A stretch of 64,000 nucleotides of DNA from Kyrpidia spormannii. GTDB lineage: Bacteria; Bacillota; Bacilli; Kyrpidiales; Kyrpidiaceae. The position numbers were made by a program, and so were the translations under genes. The notes under the pieces were generated by a model that worked only from the letters and a program-made list of their open reading frames with translations, ran no database searches and was not told the origin of the DNA. This document shows positions 4,617 to 62,639 of this stretch, piece by piece; position 1 is the stretch's first letter, and the number at the start of each line of letters is the position of its first letter. Location of the stretch: positions 2,914,001 through 2,978,000 of the forward strand of contig NZ_CP024955.1 in the NCBI RefSeq assembly GCF_002804065.1, read 5' to 3'.

Positions 4617-6131
4617 GTGACGCACGTCCTGTCCCTCCTCCTCGCCCTGCCCCTTTTCGGTATGTTGATCGCCGCCGGGATCCCCCGGGAAAAAACCACG
4701 GCGATTCGCGCTGTCGGGATCGCGGTGTCTATCCTGGCGCTTCTACTGTCCCTTGTGATCTGGTTCCTGTTTGACCGCGGTTCGGGAACCCTGCAGTTTA
4801 CCGAGCACGGACAATGGTTTACCTTTCCCCTGCCCGGTCTGGAGCCCTTCCAGTCCGGACCGTCGGTCACCCTGGTGAGAGTCGGCTACGACCTCGGGGT
4901 CGACGGATTGTCCTTGCCCCTTTTGGCGATGTCTACCCTCGTGGCAGCGGCGGCCATGGTGGCCTCCTGGCGCACGGTGGAGCGGGTCAAAGCCTACACC
5001 CTGTGGTTCCTCTTGCTCGAAGCCGGGGTAAACGGCATTTGGACGGCCCAGAACCTTCTTTTATTCTTTATATTTTTTGAATTAGCGTTAATTGCTTTGT
5101 TTTTCCTCGTCGGGATTTGGGGAAGCGAGGGGAGGTGGCGGGCGGCCTACGAACTGCTTCTGTACAACGGTCTCGGTTCCCTGGTGATGCTCATCGTATT
5201 CGTCGCCCTTTTTCTCGCAACGGGCACCTCGGACATCCGGGAGATCCGGGCCGCTTTTGAGCGGCAGGCCCTACCTCCCGGGGAGCAAATGTGGCTCGTC
5301 ATCGGTCTTCTGGTGGCCTTCGGGATTAAGCTGCCGATCTTTCCTTTTCATACCTGGGTAAAAAATGTTCATCCCGTCGCATCGGCCCCGGTGTCGATGA
5401 TGCTCTCCGGCGTCTTACTCAAAGTGGGCGCCTACGGGCTCATCCGGTTTGCCCTCGGGTTTTTCCCGGATACCTTTGCCCGTCTCGCCCCGCTCCTGGT
5501 GGCCCTGGGGCTGATCAATGTGTTTTACGGCGCCCTCCTGGCCTTTGTCGATCGCGATTTTAAAAGGATCATCGCTTACTCCAGTATCAGTCAAATGGGT
5601 ATCGTCCTGCTCGGCCTGGCCGCCCTTAACCAGATCGGCTTGCTCGGCGCCCTTTTTCAACTCGTGTCCCACGGTTTGATCTCGGCGCTTCTCTTTTTCC
5701 TGGCCGGGGTGACCTACGCCGAAACCCACACTTCCTCCCTGGATCGGCTGAGTGGACTCGGGGCGCGCATGCCCAGGACGGCCGGTTTCCTGATGTTCGC
5801 TGCCTTGGCCTCCCTGGGCGTGCCGCTCCTGTCCGGGTTCGTGGGCGAGTGGCTGGCACTGTTGGGGTTGTTCACCACCCCCTTTCGGCCCTTTGCAATA
5901 ATTGGAGCCTTGTCCATCGTCACCAGTGCGCTCTATATTCTACGGGCGGTGATGCGGGCGATGCACGGGCCGCTGCCCGATGCCCTTGCTCACGTACAGG
6001 ACGCCCGGTCTGCCGATATGGCGCCGATTGCCGCCCTGTCCCTGGGGATCGTCCTTCTGGGCGTGTTTCCGTTTCTCATGGGGGATCTGGCCCATGCTTC
6101 CCTGGCCGCCATCGAGGCCTTGCCCTCCTGA
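4617..6131 (+). CDS. nuoM: NADH-quinone oxidoreductase subunit M (displaced)
   Basis: This integral membrane protein of about 504 residues is homologous to Mrp-type antiporters and is one of the proton-translocating subunits of complex I. Many hydrophobic segments are visible. The family core KLPIFPFHTWVKNVHPVAS contains the conserved Lys and His, and DFKRIIAYSSISQMG carries the second conserved set. The start is GTG at 4617, about nine bases after AAAGGGGG, or GTG at 4608 overlapping the tkt stop. The gene lies between tkt and rpiB instead of between nuoL and nuoN, and no other nuoM is present in the downstream nuo cluster. It could instead be an antiporter-like paralog, but its absence from the cluster makes the complex I role more likely. 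Confidence 0.88.
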   Translation: MTHVLSLLLALPLFGMLIAAGIPREKTTAIRAVGIAVSILALLLSLVIWFLFDRGSGTLQFTEHGQWFTFPLPGLEPFQSGPSVTLVRVGYDLGVDGLSLPLLAMSTLVAAAAMVASWRTVERVKAYTLWFLLLEAGVNGIWTAQNLLLFFIFFELALIALFFLVGIWGSEGRWRAAYELLLYNGLGSLVMLIVFVALFLATGTSDIREIRAAFERQALPPGEQMWLVIGLLVAFGIKLPIFPFHTWVKNVHPVASAPVSMMLSGVLLKVGAYGLIRFALGFFPDTFARLAPLLVALGLINVFYGALLAFVDRDFKRIIAYSSISQMGIVLLGLAALNQIGLLGALFQLVSHGLISALLFFLAGVTYAETHTSSLDRLSGLGARMPRTAGFLMFAALASLGVPLLSGFVGEWLALLGLFTTPFRPFAIIGALSIVTSALYILRAVMRAMHGPLPDALAHVQDARSADMAPIAALSLGIVLLGVFPFLMGDLAHASLAAIEALPS

Positions 6132-19322: not shown

Positions 19323-20318
19323 GTGGTGAGGCTGATTAAGGTATCTGATTACAATCATCACAACATGCAATTGGCAAAGCCTGTTTACGACAGAAAAGGA
19401 CGGATCCTGCTTGGAGCCGGCAATACTATTCATCCAAAATATTTGGAAAAACTGAAGGAAATGGGAATCTCCCATTTCCTTGTCGAAGATGCCGAATCCA
19501 ATGGAATCACGCTTGAAGAGATGCTGGATATGCCTACATGGATGGATGCCATACTTGGACTGCAGAACGTCTACAACCAGGTCGCAGCAAGAAAGCCGCT
19601 TCCGCTCGTTTCGGTCCAAAAAACCATCGGCCAGTTAATTTCGGAGGTCAAACGGCGCAAAACCGTTTTACTGGTACCATCCACATCGATAGCCAGTGAA
19701 CTTCGTCCTTATGCTCATGCTGTAAATGTTGCCCTGCTTTCACTGCAGGTTGGTAAAGCAATGAACTATAACGATTTGCAATTGCGTGATCTGGCGCTGG
19801 GGGCTTACCTGCATGATATCGGTAAAGCCATCACACCGGAGAAAACGAAACACCCGGAAGCGGGGTTCAATATTCTGCGCAGCATCCATGATTTGAGTTT
19901 ATGGTCCGCGCATGTTTCATTTCAACACCATGAAACGTTGGATGGACAGGGATATCCCCGCGGACTGAAAGGAACTGCCATTCATGAATATGCTCAAATC
20001 TGCGGAGCGGCTAACATGTATGAGAATCTCATATCTCTTCGAGAAACTCCTCCGCATGAAGCGTTGGAAGCGCTAATGGCCTTATCCGGGACAAAATATC
20101 TGGAATCAGTCGTCAAAGCGTTCGTCGATAGGATCCCATCCTATCCTCCAGGTACAATGGTTCAACTGAACAATGGTGAACCGGGAATCGTCATCCGGAT
20201 TGATACCCACATGCAGCGTCCGGTCGTGCGAATCCTTGCATCCGGGCAGGAGATCTCTCTGGCAGACAACCCTTCTATCATGATTACAGAATTGGCACGG
20301 GATAGCCTACGGCTCTAG
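19323..20318 (+). CDS. HD-GYP-type c-di-GMP phosphodiesterase
   Basis: This 331-residue protein has a variable N-terminal region (about 1-130) and a C-terminal HD-GYP domain. The domain shows YLHDIGK near residue 162, and QHHETLDGQGYPRGLKG near residue 200, which carries both the metal-binding histidines and the GYP motif. Such domains hydrolyse cyclic di-GMP. Downstream of the domain is a 50-residue extension (PGTMVQLNNGEPGIVIRID) seen in many Firmicute members. It starts with GTG after AAGGAGGCG. The next genes are an EAL protein and a chemoreceptor, so this is a local c-di-GMP and motility signalling cluster. Confidence 0.88.
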   Translation: MVRLIKVSDYNHHNMQLAKPVYDRKGRILLGAGNTIHPKYLEKLKEMGISHFLVEDAESNGITLEEMLDMPTWMDAILGLQNVYNQVAARKPLPLVSVQKTIGQLISEVKRRKTVLLVPSTSIASELRPYAHAVNVALLSLQVGKAMNYNDLQLRDLALGAYLHDIGKAITPEKTKHPEAGFNILRSIHDLSLWSAHVSFQHHETLDGQGYPRGLKGTAIHEYAQICGAANMYENLISLRETPPHEALEALMALSGTKYLESVVKAFVDRIPSYPPGTMVQLNNGEPGIVIRIDTHMQRPVVRILASGQEISLADNPSIMITELARDSLRL

Positions 20319-20443
20319 AAAGACAAGGTGGAAAAAGACCGCGATATGGCAGAACGGCTACATTTGGGTTTCGGCGTGGGACACAAAAACGGATCAGAGA
20401 ACTCCCGAGAGAGATATTTCTGGTTATAGAAAGGGGAACGGTG

Positions 20444-21276
20444 ATGATTTACACAGACGTTTCAACCGGTGGCAATAAATTCCTCCCCTCTCGGGGGAGG
20501 GGGGGTACAATTATCCTCTAGATAAAAAAATTACCAACCCCTTTGGGTTTAGAGAGTTTTTTAACCAATACAAACTCCACTCAGAATTTCAACCCGTTGT
20601 TTACCTCTCGACGGGAGAGATCTACGGTGTTGAAGCTTTAACATGTCCATCTCTCAACGGCAAACCACTCGACCCGCAGCAGTGGTTTCGTTCAGCGTGG
20701 GAGCGGGGACTATCGGCGGACGCCGATTTGAAAGCTCTAGAAACCGCTCTTTCCACTCTCCACAATGCCCCCTCAAAGATCAAGATAAGCAACATTTTCG
20801 TGAATGTAATGGCGTCAAGTTTGAATGATTCGCGTTTTATAACCGAACTGTGCAATCAGCTACATAAACATGGGATAAAATCCGACGAACTTATTATTGA
20901 GATTGTAGAATATGTCGAGTTTAACCCGGGTGAAATAAAGGAAATGGTCAAGCAGTTGCGCTCCCTTGGAATACGTGTTGCAATTGACGACTGTAAAACC
21001 TTGGATAAGACGAGGAAGACTTTGGTTGAGCTCGAACCGGACTTTGTAAAGATGGATAAATCGATCATTGGCCATATTCATGATTCATATTTCAAGCAGA
21101 CTACCCTTGTTCGTGTGGTTGAATTCGTAAAAGGGTACGGAAAGATCATTGCCGAAGGGGTTGAACGGGCAGAAGAACGCGAAGTCATCCATAAGTGTGG
21201 GGTAGAAATGGGGCAGGGGTATCTCTGGGCTCCTCCTCTCAGCATAGAAGAATTGGCACCGATGCTTCAAGTTTAG
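20444..21276 (+). pseudogene. EAL-domain c-di-GMP phosphodiesterase, frameshifted at a G-tract
   Basis: An ATG at 20444 after AAAGGGGAACG opens a short frame (MIYTDVSTGGNKFLPSRG). It continues into an EAL domain only after a -1 shift at the G5-A-G7 tract (20493-20505). The EAL part runs in frame from 20479: EFQPVVYLSTGEIYGVEAL with the EAL residues, NIFVNVMAS, IRVAIDDCKT, DFVKMDKSIIG, EGVERAEE and [10 protein letters not shown]. The metal-binding and catalytic residues therefore appear complete. Either the gene is broken, or it is switched by slippage in the G-run, or one base is missing from the assembly. No normal start codon lies between 20479 and 20725 in the EAL frame. Confidence 0.7.
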
Positions 21277-21371: not shown

Positions 21372-23090
21372 ATGTTCTTATCCAGTTTCCGAACAAAACT
21401 TGCGATTATCCTTATTTTGTGCATGATCATTCCAACCACCACGTCGGGATTCATCGCATATGTTGCCACCCAGAGGGCCCTCTCAAACGAAGGGATGAAC
21501 GAACTTGAACAAGCCACCGTTGGGGCGGTCAACTTGGCGGCCTCCTTGCAAAAATTCGTGGATGCCGGGGTCATGACCAAAGAGCAGGCTCAGGAACAAC
21601 TCCGAACATTGCTGTTGGGACCGAAACAACCGGATGGCAGCAGAGATTTGAGCCAAGCCCGCGTCCGGGTCGCGAAAACCGGGTATGTATCGGCCATTGA
21701 CTCCCAGGGCAACGCGGTGATGCACCCGAAGGTGGAGGGGACCAACATCCGGGATGCCCAGGGAGGGCTAGGCAAACGGGTGGCCGAAATGAAGAACGGA
21801 GAACTCGAGTATCTGTGGCAGAATCCGGGGGAATCCCAGGCTTATCCGAAGATCGCGTATGTGCAATACTTTGCCCCTTGGGATTGGATTTTTATGACCA
21901 CAGCCTACAAAGACGAGTTTCAGGCCGCCGCAAATAACATCAAGCGCGTGATCGGCCTCATCGTCGGTGTCGATCTTGCCGCGGCGCTGTTGCTGGCATG
22001 GATCTTAAGCAGAAGTTGGATGACACTAATACAAGGGGCCAGCGATGCCGTCGGGCGGCTCGGTCGCGGTGATTTAACGGTACGGCTGAATTTTGAGAAG
22101 AGAAAAGACGAGTTTGGACAGTTGGCCAGACACTTCAATCATGCTGTGAATGGCCTTACGGAATTGATCCAAGAAGTTCGCGGCAATGCGAATCTGGTTG
22201 CATCCGCTTCCCAACAGCTCACGGCGAGTGCTGAAGAAACCGGCAAATCCGCAGAACAAATCGCCTCGGCGGCCCAGACCGTGGCGGAAGAAGCGCAAAA
22301 ACAGTTCATGGAGACCGAAAACCTCGTACGTGTCGCAGAACAAGTATCCGAGGACATTAGAAACGCCGAAGAAGCCGTTAATCAGGTATTCTCCCTGGCC
22401 ACGGAAGCCGCCGCCTACGCCGAGGACGGCGGTGGAACGGTGGATGAAGCAGTTCGCAGCATAGCCCAGGTGGAGGGCAAAATGAATTATCTTACCGAGG
22501 CCATGGACCAACTCAACAACCGTTTGCAGGAAATTGTCCGCATCGTCGAAATCATTGAAGGGATTTCTAAACAGACTAACCTGCTGGCGCTCAATGCCGC
22601 CGTGGAAGCGGCCAGGGCCGGGGAGCAGGGCCGGGGATTCGCCGTAGTGGCTGAATCGGTCCGAAAATTGGCCGAGGAATCGGCAGCATCAGCGAAAGAA
22701 ATCGGCCAGCTCACCGAGGCGATCCGTCAAGATACGAATGGCCTGGCCGTTGCTGTCGAGGGGGCTGTCCTGGAGGTGAAGCATGGTGTCGAGACCGTGG
22801 AAGCGGCGGGGCGAACCTTTTCAGGGATCGCCGACAATGCTCGGCAAGCTGCTCGGCACATGGAGAAGGCTGGCGAACAGGTCAAGCAGGTTGTCGGTGC
22901 AGTCAGTCGTATTGTTCAGGAGATCGACGATATTCGTTCCTTTGCCCGGCAGACGGCCAGCGGAACCCAAACGGTGTCTGCAGCAACGGAAGAACAATTG
23001 GCTGTGGCCGAGCAAGTCTCGGCATCCGCCATCTCGTTGTCTGACACAGCTTCCGCCCTGCAAAACTTGACATTGCGGTTTGAAGTATAA
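21372..23090 (+). CDS. Methyl-accepting chemotaxis protein with extracellular Cache domain
   Basis: This 572-residue chemoreceptor has an N-terminal transmembrane helix ([19 protein letters not shown]), a single-Cache-like periplasm-facing domain (about 35-195, with [18 protein letters not shown]), a second helix, a HAMP linker ([20 protein letters not shown]) and a cytoplasmic signalling domain. The hairpin tip reads [20 protein letters not shown]. It would report a small ligand to CheA/CheW. ACAGGAGGTAC precedes the ATG. A good intrinsic terminator follows at 23115. No che genes are in the window. Confidence 0.93.
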
Positions 23091-23468: not shown

Positions 23469-25175
23469 TCACAGCTTGAACTTTAAAACCGCTTGTTGCA
23501 GTTGCTGTCCAAGGCTGGCCAGGAATTCAGCGGAGGATGCCAACTGTTCAATGGAAGCCGATTGCTCCTCGGCGCCGGCAGCCACACTTTGGCTGGCTTC
23601 GGACACATGCTGTGCGATTTCACCGATAGTTGTAGTGGCATTGACCATCTCTTGACTCCCCTTGGCCAGTTCTTCTGTGGAACGGGAAACTTCCTGGATC
23701 TGACGGGAGACGCTGTTTACGTCCTCCTCGATTTGTTGGAAAGCCTTTGCACCTTCCACGATCACCCGCCAACCGTTTTCCACCAATTGGGTGTTGCTTT
23801 CTATAACTTCCACCGCCTTCGCAGTATCTTCCTGGACTTGACGGATGAGGTCCGCGATTTCCCGGGCCGCTTGCCCGGACTGCTCAGCGAGCTTGCGCAC
23901 TTCATCGGCCACCACGGTGAAACCTCGGCCTTGCTCCCCAGCTCGTGCGGCCTCAATGGCAGCGTTCAAAGCCAAGAGATTCGTCTGGTTGGCGATGCTG
24001 CTGATAAGGTCCACGATCTGGCCGATGGCTTGGGACCGATTCCCCAACTCGTTAATAATCTCAGATATCTCCTTGCTTGAGGTATTGATTTTGTCCATTT
24101 CGGCCCCAGCCCGACTCATGGCCTGGTTGCCATCCTGGGCTCGCTGACTGGTAACTTGGGCTGCACTTGCCACCTGTTGGGTGATTGCGGCGATCTGCTG
24201 TATAGCTGCGGAAAATTCTTCGATCGAGGCCATGGTATCTTGCACCTTCTCGCTTTGCAAACCTGCTCCGGCAGCCAGTTCCTGCGCCGCCTGGCTGACT
24301 TCAGTGACGGCTTGGCTGCTTTGCTCGGTGCCGGCGCTCATCTCTTCCGAGGCAGACGCGACAGTTTCAGCGGCGTCGGTGATTTGCCGAAGCAGCGACT
24401 TCAGGTTACCGGCCATCTGGTTGAAAGAGCCTGTAAGTTGGCCAATTTCGTCCCGCGTGTTGACTGTAACGGTCTCCCCGCTCAGGTCACCCTCCGCCAC
24501 TTTTTCCGCCGCTGCGGTAACCACGGCCAAGGGCTTGGTGATTATACGGGATACGAGCAGGTTCAGCCCCAGGCTGAGACCAACCCCAACCACGATCACG
24601 ACGACGAAGGTTACTTGCACTCTGTGATACATGGCGTCGGCTTCTTTTTTTATGTCGTCCGCCATCTGGGCGTTGAGTTGCACCAGTTCCCCAATCACAT
24701 TGTTGACTGCCGTACGCCTGGGAGTGACCTGCTGGTGAAGCACCTGCACGGCCAAGTCGGAACTCTGGGCGGCTACAAGCTGGTTGACGGCCTGCATGTA
24801 GTCACCATAGGCTTGGCGGAGGCGATTGATGATGTCGCGCTCCTGCGGCCGCACAATGGTGGGCAGGTATGCCTCGATAGCCTTTGCAAAATCTGCATCG
24901 TACTTCTGGATGTCCTGACGCACTGAGCTTTGGCCGGCGGCGTCCGCCAGGACGTAATCAGCACAGGCCACCGCTATGCGTCTGACAGCCCGTTCCGCGT
25001 CCCCGGCTTTTTGGATGCCTAAGACATTATCGCTGTAAATCGTTTGCACTTGTGCGTCGATCTGCGCCAGGCTAATAACCCCCATGATACCCATTGCGAG
25101 CAGGGCTACCAGACTGGCAAGAGCTGACAGAAACAGTTTTGTCGAAACCCTAAAATGATTAAATAATCTGAACAA
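23469..25175 (-). CDS. Methyl-accepting chemotaxis protein with four-helix-bundle sensor
   Basis: This chemoreceptor of about 568 residues has the 4HB-type N-terminal sensor between two membrane helices ([22 protein letters not shown] and the one near [20 protein letters not shown]). A HAMP domain and a full signalling domain follow; its tip reads [20 protein letters not shown]. The open frame begins with ATG at 25202, but AAGGAGGAT at 25183-25192 lies inside that extension and fits a TTG start at 25175, which I prefer. It is convergent with the Cache receptor. The ligand cannot be told from sequence. Confidence 0.92.
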
Positions 25176-25319
25176 TATCCGATCCTCCTTCTTTGACCTC
25201 ATCCAAGATTGTTTCCGGGTTTGTTCCCAAGTAATTATGTTTAGTGGTCAAAGGAGGAGACCTGGGCATCAAGATGAAAACGCGTTGATTTCTATTAAAT
25301 GGTATTTTTGGTTGATTTA

Positions 25320-25341
25320 CCCCCCCCCCCCCCCCCCCCCC
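25320..25341 (+). repeat. Homopolymer tract of 22 cytosines
   Basis: Twenty-two C residues occur in a row between the minus-strand chemoreceptor promoter region and the small ORF at 25535. No gene reading depends on its length as far as I can see. Such tracts are length-unstable, so the number in the assembly may not be exact. Confidence 0.95.
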
Positions 25342-57823: not shown

Positions 57824-60689
57824 AGAATCCCGGACAACGGGTCTATCTCGCCTGTGGAAGCACCGACTTGCGCAAGTCCATCGACGGGCTCGCTGTGCTG
57901 GTCAAAGAGCAGTTCGAACTGGACCCGTTTTCGCCGTGTCTTTTCGCGTTTTGCAGTGCGACTTGAAAGTCGTCGAGATTCATGTGGTGCGAATCCACCC
58001 GTCCAGAACTGCGGACGCGAACCTACCGTGACGTGGGGCAGTGGTAACGCAGCCTTGCGAGAGCTCACGGGACAATGTAGCCGCGCCAGATAGAGTGAAT
58101 TCGGGCCGGAGCCAGGTTGCGAAGTGCATGGTGAACATCCGTGAACCCTCTATAAACCGCGTCAGCGAAGACAAGCGAAACACTCTGATACGCTTGAGCC
58201 AAAAGGCATGTAGCCGGAATCGGCACTTGCAAATTGCCGATTCGCAGTTCCGAGTGCTACCGCGGGATTCAGGGCACCTAAACACTTCAGAGATGGGGTC
58301 TCGACGGAACAAGGTAAGCCCCATGGGGTCTGTCCGAAACGAGACAGTAAGCGGAACGTAAGTTACGCCGAACTCCTCAGGGGGTAGAGGAATGGGCAAA
58401 AAGCGAAGGCTGTCTTGTAATGAGACAGATAGGGGCGGCAGAAAGGCCGAGATACCCCGACGCGAAAGCGTGCAGACTTGCCCAAGGTCATCCAGCCGGG
58501 AATCCTGTAGCATGAGACGAAAGGGGTGGTCTGTTATGAACCGAAAAGCCGTCCCAAAAGACGAGTCAACAGGCCACACTCGTAAGAATCCCAGAGAAAT
58601 CCACGAAGACCCTATCATGCGCGCATGGTTGGAAGCCCAAACGGCCGAGACCCGTCCACATGATATGGACCAGTGGACAGGATGGAAGGATATCGAACGT
58701 CACGTCCTCAGGTTGCAGCGACAACTGGCTCACGCAGTCGAAAATGGCAATCGTAAAGCAGTGCGCCACTACAAGTGGCTCATTCGGACCAGCCACCACG
58801 TCAAACTTCTGGCCATTCGGCACGTGACGCAAGAAAACCGGGGACGGCGCACCCCAGGAGTCGATGGAAAAATTTACACGACGCCAAGGCAGCGCCGTAA
58901 ACTCTGCAGGCTTGTGAATCTACATCGTCGTCCTGATCCGGTTCGGCGGGTGTACATCCGTAAGAAGAATGGCAAGCTCCGACCTTTGGGAATTCCCACC
59001 ATGCACGACCGGGTGTGTCAGGCCATCCACAAGATGGCCATGGAACCTGAGTGGGATATTCAATTTGCGCCCAATACGTACGGATTCCGACCACAGCGGT
59101 CGACATGGGACGCGATCGGACAAGTTTATACCATCCTTTGTCGCTCTAACTCCCCCCAATGGGTCATCGAAGGGGATATTCGTGGGTATTTTGACAACGT
59201 CGACCACGAGAAACTGCTGGCTAAGCTCGCTCCAGAAGACCGCGTGTTCGTTCGGCGCATGTTGAAAGCCCCCGTCTTTGATCCGGAACATGGGCTTGTT
59301 CCAAGCATCAGGGGTACGCCCCAAGGGGGTCTGTTATCCCCCTTACTGGCGGTTATTGCGTTACAAGGGATGGAGAACGAGTTGCGGGAAAAGGCGTTGC
59401 AAATGAAATTTGGAAGAGACCGCACGAGTCCCGGCATTCACATCGTCAACTATGCGGACGACTTCATCGTCACGTGCAAAACCAAGGAGCAGGCCGAACA
59501 GTTTGTACCGGTCATCGCCCAGTGGCTTGCGGAGAATGTCGGGGTTGAACTCAGCCTGGAGAAGACCCACATCACACACATCGATGACGGGTTTGACTTT
59601 CTGGGATTTAACGTCCGAAAGTACCGCGGGACGCTATTGATTAAACCCGCCAAGGCCAATGTGCTAGCCTTTTTGCGGAAAATCAAAAGCATCCTGGACG
59701 CGAACAAGTCGGCCAAGCCATCTACGGTCATCCGGTTGCTGAATCCCTTGATCCGGGGATGGGGCAACTACTACAGCACCCAGGTGAGTAAGGAAATCTT
59801 TAACTACTGCGACCACAGGATTCACTGGATGCTCTGGAGATGGGCGAAACGACGACATCCGGGGAAAGGAGCCCGGTGGATTCACCGGAGGTACTTCCCT
59901 CGGCGTGGAAATCGCAAGGGGGTATTCGCGGACGGCCCACTCACGCTCGCCATCATGAGCGACATTCGCATCATCCGGCACGTGAAGATACAGGGACGAC
60001 GTTCGCCTTATCGCCCAAGCGACCAGGAGTATTTTGAAGCAAGACGAGAACATCTGCTCCTGAAACGGTTGAACGGCATGCAGAAGGCAGTGGTGCGCAA
60101 AACCCACGGACGGTGTGCACTCTGTGGATGTCCCATTTCTACGGAACACTTCCGACGCTGGCAGGTCGACGGAGACAATCCTATCCTGTTCGTTCGGATG
60201 ATTCCCGAGCGACTCGGAGGCCGCAATACGATTGCAAATGTCGTCGTTACGCACCGATGGTGCTATAACAGGTACCGATCCGTTTATAACCATGATCCCC
60301 TTCCCGACCAGCTAGAACGCTATCTTTCCAATCAGGAAAGTCTGATCGACGGACGTGTGGTGTGGGATCGTGAACGACGATGAAACTGCAGGATGGCTTG
60401 AGCCGTGTGACGGGAAACTGTCATGCACGGTTCTTAGGGGAGGAGGTGGCCGCAAGGCCACCGACTTACCCGACATCGCAAACGGGATAAACTCAAAATC
60501 CTCCAGTGGGACCACAATGGGTTCTGGCTCCATTACCGGCGCTTGGAACGGGGCACCTTTCAGTGGCCCGACGAGAATCCGTCGGAAACCCTGAAAATCA
60601 ACCGCCGGCAGTTGCAGTGGCTGCTCGACGGGCTTTCCCTGAATCAGAGCCAAGCCCATCGGGAGGTGACGGCGCGCACCGTCCTGTAA
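57817..60689 (+). CDS. tnpB: IS66 accessory protein TnpB, split by a group II intron
   Basis: Exon 1 is 57817-57955 and exon 2 is 60475-60689. Exon 1 begins with GTG inside the end of tnpA and reads YLACGSTDLRKSIDGLAVLV up to LFAFC. Joining the exons restores the family sequence FCNRKRDKLKILQWDHNGFW, then LERGTFQWP and a normal C-terminus. The spliced product has 117 residues, the usual IS66 TnpB length. Without splicing the frame stops three codons after the junction. TnpB is required for IS66 transposition but has no known enzyme activity. Confidence 0.85.
58536..60383 (+). CDS. ltrA: Group II intron reverse transcriptase/maturase with HNH domain
   Basis: This intron-encoded protein of about 615 residues has reverse-transcriptase blocks RPLGIPTMHDRVCQ, FRPQRSTWDAI, GDIRGYFDNVDH, GTPQGGLLSPLLA and the catalytic NYADDF (near residue 305). 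Domain X (maturase) lies around LNPLIRGWGNYY. A C-terminal HNH endonuclease has CALCGCP and later THRWCYNRY. It helps the intron RNA to splice and inserts it into new sites by target-primed reverse transcription. I chose the ATG at 58536; the open frame extends back to 58392 but that part is intron RNA structure. Confidence 0.93.
   Translation: MNRKAVPKDESTGHTRKNPREIHEDPIMRAWLEAQTAETRPHDMDQWTGWKDIERHVLRLQRQLAHAVENGNRKAVRHYKWLIRTSHHVKLLAIRHVTQENRGRRTPGVDGKIYTTPRQRRKLCRLVNLHRRPDPVRRVYIRKKNGKLRPLGIPTMHDRVCQAIHKMAMEPEWDIQFAPNTYGFRPQRSTWDAIGQVYTILCRSNSPQWVIEGDIRGYFDNVDHEKLLAKLAPEDRVFVRRMLKAPVFDPEHGLVPSIRGTPQGGLLSPLLAVIALQGMENELREKALQMKFGRDRTSPGIHIVNYADDFIVTCKTKEQAEQFVPVIAQWLAENVGVELSLEKTHITHIDDGFDFLGFNVRKYRGTLLIKPAKANVLAFLRKIKSILDANKSAKPSTVIRLLNPLIRGWGNYYSTQVSKEIFNYCDHRIHWMLWRWAKRRHPGKGARWIHRRYFPRRGNRKGVFADGPLTLAIMSDIRIIRHVKIQGRRSPYRPSDQEYFEARREHLLLKRLNGMQKAVVRKTHGRCALCGCPISTEHFRRWQVDGDNPILFVRMIPERLGGRNTIANVVVTHRWCYNRYRSVYNHDPLPDQLERYLSNQESLIDGRVVWDRERR
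60400..60433 (+). ncRNA. Group II intron domain V
   Basis: A 34-base hairpin GAGCCGTG..., inner stem TGACGG-GAAA-CTGTCA and closing GCACGGTTC has the catalytic AGC triad near its 5' side, a GAAA tetraloop and a two-base bulge. This is the diagnostic catalytic domain. Domain VI follows up to 60474. Confidence 0.9.
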
Positions 60690-60761
60690 GCCTCCAAACT
60701 TCTTTTCCTGTCGTGGTGGGATGTGGCAGGAAAAGAAGCGTTTGTGCCGAAATCAATAGGT

Positions 60762-62345
60762 ATGAACAACATCGTGGTTGCTGCGGAGACAATCGAATCC
60801 CTTGAGAAAAGAATCCAGCGCCTGGAACAGGAAAATGCCGAGTTGGCGGCCAAGGTGGCCTGGTATGAGGAGCAGTTTCGCCTGAGTCAACGCCGCCGGT
60901 TTGCCGCCTCCAGCGAGCGCTCCAAGACGACCTCCGAGCAGTTGGAACTGTTTAACGAGGCCGAAGTGGAGGCACAGACGCCTCCACCGGAGCCGACGGT
61001 GGAAACAGTGACGGTGCGCCGGGTGAAAAAGCCGGGTCAGCGGGAAGAGAAGCTGAAGGAGCTGCCGGTGGAACGGATCGAGCACCGCCTGGCCGAAGAG
61101 GAACAGGTTTGCCCGCAGTGTGGGGATGCGCTCCACGAGATGAGCACCGAGGTTCGGCGGGAACTCAAGATCATCCCGGCGCAGGTGAAAGTGGTGGAGC
61201 ACGTGCGGCAGTTGTACTCCTGCCGCCGTTGCGAACGCGAAGAGATCCAGACCCCGATTGTCAAGGCCCCCATGCCGAAGCCGGTCCAACCGGGAAGTCT
61301 GGCCTCCCCCTCGGCGGTAGCCTACGTGATGACGCAAAAATACGTCGAGGGGATGCCGCTGTACCGGCAGGAGCAACAGTTTGAACGCCAGGGTCTTGCC
61401 CTCTCGCGGCAAACCCTGGCGAATTGGATCGTGTACAGCGCGGAGCATTGGCTGGAGCCCTTGTACGAGCGGATGCACCGGGAGCTTTTGAACCAAGACA
61501 TCCTGCATGCGGACGAGACCACGCTGCAGGTGTTGCGGGAGCCGGGGCGGGCGGCAGAGACGACGTCGTACCTGTGGCTGTACCGCACCGGACGCTACAG
61601 TCCGCCCATCGTCCTGTATGAGTACCAGAGGACTCGGGCGGCGGAACATCCGAAGGCGTTTCTGAACGGGTTTAAAGGGTACCTGCATGTGGACGGGTAT
61701 GCGGGGTACAACGGACTGGCGGACGTGACCTTGGTGGGGTGCTGGGCGCACGCCAGGAGGAAATTTGACGAGGCACTCAAATCCCTGCCGGCCTCGAAGC
61801 GTTCGGCGCCGGTGGCCGCCAAGGAAGGCTTGGCCTATTGCAACCGGCTGTTTGCGATCGAGCGAGACCTGAAAGATCTCACGCCGGAGGAGCGGTACCG
61901 CCGCCGCTTGGAGTTGAGCCGTCCGGTGTTGGATGAGTTTTTGGCGTGGCTGGTGGAGCAAAAGGAACACGCCCTGCCCAAAAGCGCCTTTGGCCAAGCC
62001 ATTCAGTACTGCTTGGGACAGTGGGGGAAGTTGGAGGCGTTTTTGAAAGACGGGCGGTTGGAGATCGACAACAACCGGAGCGAGCGATCGATCAAGCCCT
62101 TTGTGATTGGTCGAAAAAACTGGTTATTCGCGAACACCCCGAAAGGGGCGAAGGCGAGCGCGACGGTGTACAGCATCGTGGAGACCGCCAAGGAAAACGG
62201 GCTGAATCCCTACGAATATCTTCGGTACCTGTTTGAGCGGTTGCCCAACGTGGACGTCAACGATACCAGTGTCTTGGATAGACTGTTACCGTGGTCGCCC
62301 GAGCTGCCGGAGTCTGTCCGCCGTCGGCCATCCGGGGGCACGTAA
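60762..62345 (+). CDS. tnpC: IS66 transposase TnpC
   Basis: This transposase of about 527 residues has the N-terminal coiled region [20 protein letters not shown], the basic linker, the zinc-binding CPQCG...CRRC, and the DDE catalytic domain with [25 protein letters not shown] and the Glu in [14 protein letters not shown]. The C-terminal IS66 tail ([14 protein letters not shown]) is complete. An upstream GTG at 60723 could add 13 residues, but [12 protein letters not shown] looks like the natural start. With TnpA and TnpB it would move the element. Confidence 0.92.
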
Positions 62346-62430
62346 ACACCGAACTGAAGAGCAGGCCCCATCACCTGGGTCGGGTGGGGCCTATTTGGCG
62401 TGCCCAAAAAGCCTACAGCCACCGGCCTCG

Positions 62431-62442
62431 TTTGACGCTTAC
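62431..62442 (-). repeat. IS66 right inverted repeat
   Basis: TTTGACGCTTAC is the exact inverse of the left end at 57399-57410. Confidence 0.8.
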
Positions 62443-62639
62443 TTTCCATTAACGATGCGGCAGGATTCACTTCATGTTACGGCCTGCAGTTTCGCTTCAC
62501 CCATCGGGGCTTTTCGCAGGGCTTCATCCTTAGGCTCTCACCACCAGATGCCTGCTAGCTACGAGGCGGTCTGGCCCCTATCTCGGCCGGACTTGCACCG
62601 GCAAGTTGTGCCTAGCTTTGCTAGGCGCGCTGTGGGGGA

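Follow-up and report, generated by a model that had tools for sequence, protein, structure and literature searches.

A short, broken run of guanines in the chromosome of Kyrpidia sp. EA-1, G5-A-G7, is best explained as what is left, shortened and interrupted, of a poly-G contingency tract found in a family of genes for EAL-type c-di-GMP phosphodiesterases. In Kyrpidia and Alicyclobacillus relatives, replication slippage at this tract would phase-vary EAL-Spo0E proteins, and the EA-1 copy would be a derived member, probably locked OFF; we put the probability of this reading at about 0.7. The tract, its reading frames, its conservation in the family, the associated riboswitch and the protein domains can be read directly from the genomes.

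The gene lies in a window of 64,000 nucleotides (contig NZ_CP024955.1, positions 2,914,001 to 2,978,000), part of an EA-1 genome that forms a single contig of 3,352,175 bases. Relatives were searched in 398 genomes of the class and in two families, the Alicyclobacillus-like f7 (41 genomes) and f48 (18 genomes), with one genome per species and with long homopolymers being error-prone in such data. The nearest genome to EA-1 in the comparison (G001; 3,384,766 bases) is that of a sister species.

The tract and its frames in the window

On the forward strand, an RBS-like AAAGGGG (20430-20436) precedes the start codons GTG 20441 and ATG 20444 (together 20430-20446), which share one frame. Starts were ranked by their best match to a ribosome-binding site, a rule that counts only the four-base core AAGG here, at a spacing of 9. 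The leader frame (20444-20521) reads MIYTDVSTGGNKFLPSRGRGGTIIL from the ATG, and its 25 codons end at TAG 20519-20521. Within it lies the interrupted tract (20493-20505) in the context CTC-G5-A-G7-TAC, with G5 at 20493-20497, A at 20498 and G7 at 20499-20505. The reading frame of the EAL domain follows on the same strand (PF00563; 20506-21276) and is open from ATT 20479 to the stop at 21274-21276; its first ATG, GTG or TTG is TTG 20728, already within the domain. A -1 shift at the tract joins leader and EAL frames, and in all these respects the sequence-only reading, which had proposed a startless EAL frame reached by such a shift, agrees with the letters. Its placing of the gene beside an HD-GYP gene and chemoreceptors was likewise right: Pfam assigns an HD-GYP-type protein (HD_5, HD) to the gene upstream (19323-20318, forward strand) and sCache, HAMP and MCP signal domains to a chemoreceptor gene downstream (21372-23090, forward strand), with a second chemoreceptor beyond. 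Elsewhere in the window, group II intron pieces occur on both strands at 57998-62604 (RF02003, RF00029, RF02012).

G or C runs of seven are not in themselves rare in the window, where three have exactly that length and the four runs of at least seven fall below the 17 expected from a first-order model. Stretches of 13 bases with at least 12 Gs are found only twice on both strands, at G5-A-G7 and at a pure G22 (25320-25341). The window copy, with only G5-A-G7, does not carry the extended, uninterrupted repeat that typifies contingency loci, which lies towards the 5' end of a reading frame or in a promoter. An inverted repeat that is complete in EA-1, CCTCCCC (20482-20488) and GGGGAGG (20494-20500), spans 20482-20500 on the forward strand, and the A inside the tract could have come from a template switch at this repeat, in a change that may be read in either direction. 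Folding of 20400-20560 gave no more stability than shuffled sequence (z -0.18).

A poly-G tract in a family of EAL genes

Long tracts occupy the same place in relatives. The nearest EAL protein in EA-1, 38% identical to the window EAL, is read from a TTG start behind AAGGAGG and has G25 (genome 2849983-2850007) at the homologous junction; its orthologue in the sister species has G29. Relatives in several genera of families f7 and f48 carry G12 to G22 between a short leader and the EAL domain, so that tracts in the family span 12 to 29 Gs and are long, pure repeats. The leader frame of the window gene matches by eye that of the long-tract relatives (AAT AAA/AAC ... CCC TC). Six more distant EAL genes (L113-L118) have no G tract.

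Tract length varies between related genomes. The sister-species orthologue of the window gene reads CTC-G6-TAC at the same place and is seven bases shorter, giving 13 versus 6 bases for the window gene against 25 versus 29 for the paralogue. G091 and G113, two genomes from a single genus whose leaders are almost identical, carry 12 and 20 Gs; differences of this size, up to eight bases in a pure G run among close relatives, point to instability of the DNA itself. Several contigs end inside the tract, for example in Alicyclobacillus sendaiensis and A. mali. In a second group of EAL genes (loci L004, L036, L078), the tract before the EAL domain is G23 in G002 and G12 in G003, and the EA-1 counterpart has a short G5 run in an open frame. 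One further member, in G402, reads GGGTGGGCGG and is in frame by eye; G400, of the same genus, has G18. Tracts thus seem to decay into states that no longer change, in frame in G402 and open in the G5 counterpart, and the window copy would fit as a case fixed in the OFF state.

Short-tract members at L103, L112 and L175 show CCC(C)TTC, then G6 to G8, then TAT. The C-rich block that precedes many tracts (by eye) suggests that the poly-G perhaps grew from a small palindrome.

Runs of this kind are uncommon in EA-1, whose whole genome has only four G runs of at least nine, three of them 21 to 25 long and one being the EAL paralogue. Across the class, a run of at least 12 was found in 71 of 398 genomes; counted by hand from this census, they comprise 19/29 of f7, 4/4 of f1 and 48/365 elsewhere, many of the runs lying away from EAL genes and some being contig-end noise. 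Noise of this kind also seems to account for several further G runs in draft genomes.

Reading frames across the family

The start rule places 6 of 16 long-tract genes in frame. Two rows not picked up by the motif were read by hand, G157a in frame (ON) and G403b out of frame (OFF), and bring the total to 7 of 18 scorable genes in frame and 11 not, with lengths falling in all three phases; this is close to the third given by random length, unlike a fixed coding linker. The count includes G002 and G003 of the second EAL group, and one of the seven ON genes (G157b) has a stop inside the EAL domain. Loci with the tract at or broken by a contig end (L077/L097, L038/L092, L100, L104, L105, L108, L176) and a fragmentary EAL (L136/L160) were left out, and genes with short or broken tracts were listed apart. 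Among the latter, the window gene, its sister-species orthologue, G270a, G324, G400b and G409b are OFF by the top-ranked start, G402 is ON by eye and G409c carries G9. Starts were chosen by the rule, and some loci have a weaker start in the EAL frame.

In the tree, one branch (100/99) splits 40 rows from 15. The group of 40 holds the window gene and its orthologue, a pair that sits on a long branch, together with 21 of the 23 long-tract rows, 12 tract-less rows and one row with assembly noise. Within this group, a label test on long versus short rows found no clustering of tract length (five changes against a shuffled mean of 5.6, with 163 of 500 shuffles as low).

Riboswitch and Spo0E-like tail

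The common anatomy of these genes runs from a c-di-GMP-I riboswitch through the leader, the poly-G tract and the EAL domain to a Spo0E-like tail. Rfam placed the riboswitch upstream in 14 of the 20 loci scanned, the exceptions among these being the window gene (L001), L038, L078, L081, L103 and L107; none was found at L036, and L009, L010, L040 and L041 start at or near the tract, with too little sequence to show one. At the EA-1 paralogue, a promoter-like site (consensus match only) lies directly before the aptamer, and a stem GCGCCC...GGGCGC-TTTTT is seen by eye behind it; a scan for intrinsic terminators that allowed loops up to 8 only did not list this stem. The Spo0E-like domain (PF09388) scored above the Pfam cut-off in 22 of the 38 relatives with C-termini examined, comprising 16/22 with a tract of at least 12 and 6/16 without. 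Riboswitch or tail is kept without a long tract at L101, L103, L106, L112, L170 and L175. Downstream, a gene similar to an EA-1 FapA-like protein was present in 13 of 29 loci, some of which have short flanks. Spo0E proteins act on Spo0A~P.

State of the window copy

Pfam recognizes the EAL domain in the window frame at 144 bits (residues 26-253), and the E, N, D, K and Q positions that are invariant among five aligned members are all kept. Conserved acidic, N, K and Q residues of EAL domains have catalytic roles, and an intact loop 6 motif, DDFGTG/AGYSS, also counts toward an active phosphodiesterase. The predicted window protein retains the former and lacks the latter. Loop 6 reads DDCKTLDK in both the window protein and its sister-species orthologue, against DDVCAGST, DDVGAGST (twice) and DDVGMGSN in four relatives. 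The window EAL aligns with DosP (4hu3) over 23-260 with the invariant E, N, D, K and Q kept, unlike DosP in loop 6, and activity is doubtful because DDCKTL stands where DosP has DDFGTG. The domain that had been called complete from the sequence is not fully canonical.

Other features of the family are missing here too. The protein ends after the EAL domain, with no Pfam match to a Spo0E-like domain, and no riboswitch was found upstream at Rfam gathering scores; relaxing the search of 20300-20560 to E values up to 5 gave four sub-threshold chance hits, no riboswitch among them. Against the sister species, the window gene differs by 9 nonsynonymous and 5 synonymous substitutions (rate ratio 0.50), compared with 5 and 12 in the HD-GYP gene (0.13), 13 and 21 in the neighbouring chemoreceptor gene (0.19) and 32 and 34 in the EAL paralogue (0.26). 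With 14 substitutions, a number too small to separate decay from constraint, the window gene gives P = 0.20 in a neutral test and P = 0.07 against its two neighbours pooled (18 nonsynonymous to 33 synonymous). The unbroken EAL frame is no proof of function, since 14 changes had about an even chance of leaving no stop. The best reading of the broken tract, the absent riboswitch and tail and the degenerate loop 6 is that the window gene is a derived copy, which would once have had a long tract and is now probably locked OFF.

Further G tracts in EA-1

The pure G22 in the window (25320-25341, reverse strand) precedes the ATG listed for the second chemoreceptor (ORF 23469-25202) by about 117 nt. 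The sister species has G14 there with conserved flanks, and the spacing of promoter or leader may thus vary. An imperfect inverted repeat, CTCCTCCTTTGACC ... GGTCAAAGAAGGAGG, is seen by eye in this leader over the likely ribosome-binding site. At another locus (L074), a G21 (5027-5047; genome 1229026-1229046) precedes a PAS-HD-GYP-type ORF by about 226 nt and is G18 in the sister species, again with conserved flanks; what by eye is a C-terminal remnant of a chemoreceptor lies between the two.

In a cathode-adapted EA-1 culture, a GG insertion at nt 1515328 was recorded at 90.8% (Table 1 of PMC7823960, as excerpted). It lies directly upstream of an ORF that looks CheR-like by eye (L148). Tract slippage was considered for this insertion and rejected, the surrounding 1.1 kb having no G or C run of at least six.

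Proposed mechanism and rival explanations

In intact members, a short leader starting with ATG or TTG would be joined to the EAL domain through 12 to 29 Gs, and slipped-strand mispairing during replication would alter the number of Gs. About one length in three would give the full protein (ON) and the others an early stop (OFF), so that individual cells would gain or lose a protein that degrades c-di-GMP and may also take phosphate off Spo0A. Slippage, mixed ON/OFF populations and Spo0A as the target are what we infer from the tracts and domains. The window gene would be a derived member that has no riboswitch, Spo0E-like tail or pure tract, and that is probably locked OFF. The sequence-only reading had named phase variation, programmed slippage, recent mutation and sequencing error as candidates. 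Phase variation is well supported for the gene family, in which unrelated long tract lengths occur at the same place in several genera; it is weakly supported for the window copy, where the tract has few Gs and an A interrupts it, and where neither of the two species has the RBS-linked ATG in frame with EAL. A recent mutation fits that copy best, in the form of decay of an older switch.

It is unlikely that the window gene is still a slow switch, in which slippage in G7 occasionally joins leader and EAL. The G7 part could slip, an ATG with a modest RBS and an unbroken EAL frame are in place, and relatives bear the long form of the same element; however, the pure run is only 7, a length found three times in the window, loop 6 is altered, the tail is missing, and the G6 of the sister species likewise fails to bring the RBS-linked ATG into frame with EAL. 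In that orthologue, a GTG without an RBS sits in the EAL frame, and its protein may be made for this reason. The two copies are out of frame in different phases, EA-1 needing -1 and the sister species the opposite shift, so the direction is not conserved between orthologues and programmed -1 ribosomal frameshifting is disfavoured. More generally, slippage of ribosome or RNA polymerase at the G run might yield a constant small share of full-length protein whatever the DNA length. The family tract varies in frame, which transcriptional slippage would tolerate, and a short hairpin overlaps the window tract (-18.7 kcal/mol, z -2.1 against shuffles), but the hairpins in four further members do not clearly exceed shuffles (z -1.35 to 0.03). 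The opposed directions in the two species speak against the ribosome; as to the polymerase, the differences of up to eight Gs among close relatives suggest unstable DNA instead. We regard this explanation as improbable.

That the tract is simply a product of faulty sequencing or assembly is very unlikely. Homopolymers are a usual site of such errors, and in A. sendaiensis two contig ends show 11 Gs and 13 Gs at what looks like one site; the EA-1 chromosome (CP024955), however, comes from PacBio sequencing polished with Illumina reads to a claimed QV60 (PMC5773743), reads of 250 bases easily span 13 bases, and in the sister genome, too, the RBS-linked ATG is not in frame with EAL. Going beyond the main reading, it is conceivable, though we advance this tentatively, that Kyrpidia and Alicyclobacillus relatives share a conserved, riboswitch-controlled, poly-G phase-variable bifunctional EAL-Spo0E protein. 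By stochastically setting the levels of c-di-GMP and Spo0A~P, this protein would divide a clone into cells that swim, cells that form biofilm and cells that sporulate, with the G tracts near chemoreceptor and PAS-HD-GYP genes completing a small c-di-GMP/chemotaxis phasome.

Comparison with known systems

Neither a poly-G-switched EAL gene nor an EAL-Spo0E protein was found among the matches listed, by title and abstract beginning, in searches of the open-licence PMC literature. A 2025 review states that phase-variable loci had for long been linked mainly to surface structures and counts c-di-GMP phosphodiesterases subject to phase variation among recent themes, citing examples with promoter inversion and with epigenetic switching (PMC11868660). 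EA-1 has been studied as a cathodic biofilm former (PMC7823960, in excerpt), and the switch could matter for its use for that reason. If correct, our reading would describe a poly-G switch in a riboswitch-controlled phosphodiesterase with a sporulation-regulator tail in several environmental genera, and slippage-based bet hedging tied directly to the choice between biofilm, motility and sporulation.

Poly-G and poly-C contingency loci of Campylobacter, Neisseria and Helicobacter are switched ON and OFF in translation through homopolymeric tracts. The family resembles them in having a G run near the 5' end of the frame with lengths in all phases. It differs in its hosts, Kyrpidia and Alicyclobacillus relatives, in its product, which is a second-messenger enzyme and not a surface structure, and in tracts of up to 29. 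Adaptation of Pseudomonas aeruginosa involves both homopolymer indels and c-di-GMP enzymes; the tracts there are intergenic, the indels arose in evolved lines and the excerpted text names no tract inside an EAL gene (PMC8115180), whereas here the tract lies in the EAL gene. The pdcB and pdcC genes of Clostridioides difficile come close in pairing a c-di-GMP phosphodiesterase with stochastic switching in a spore-former. In the excerpted account, pdcB is switched by site-specific promoter inversion (PMC9286219), unlike the G tract in frame seen here, which often comes with a riboswitch and a Spo0E-like tail.
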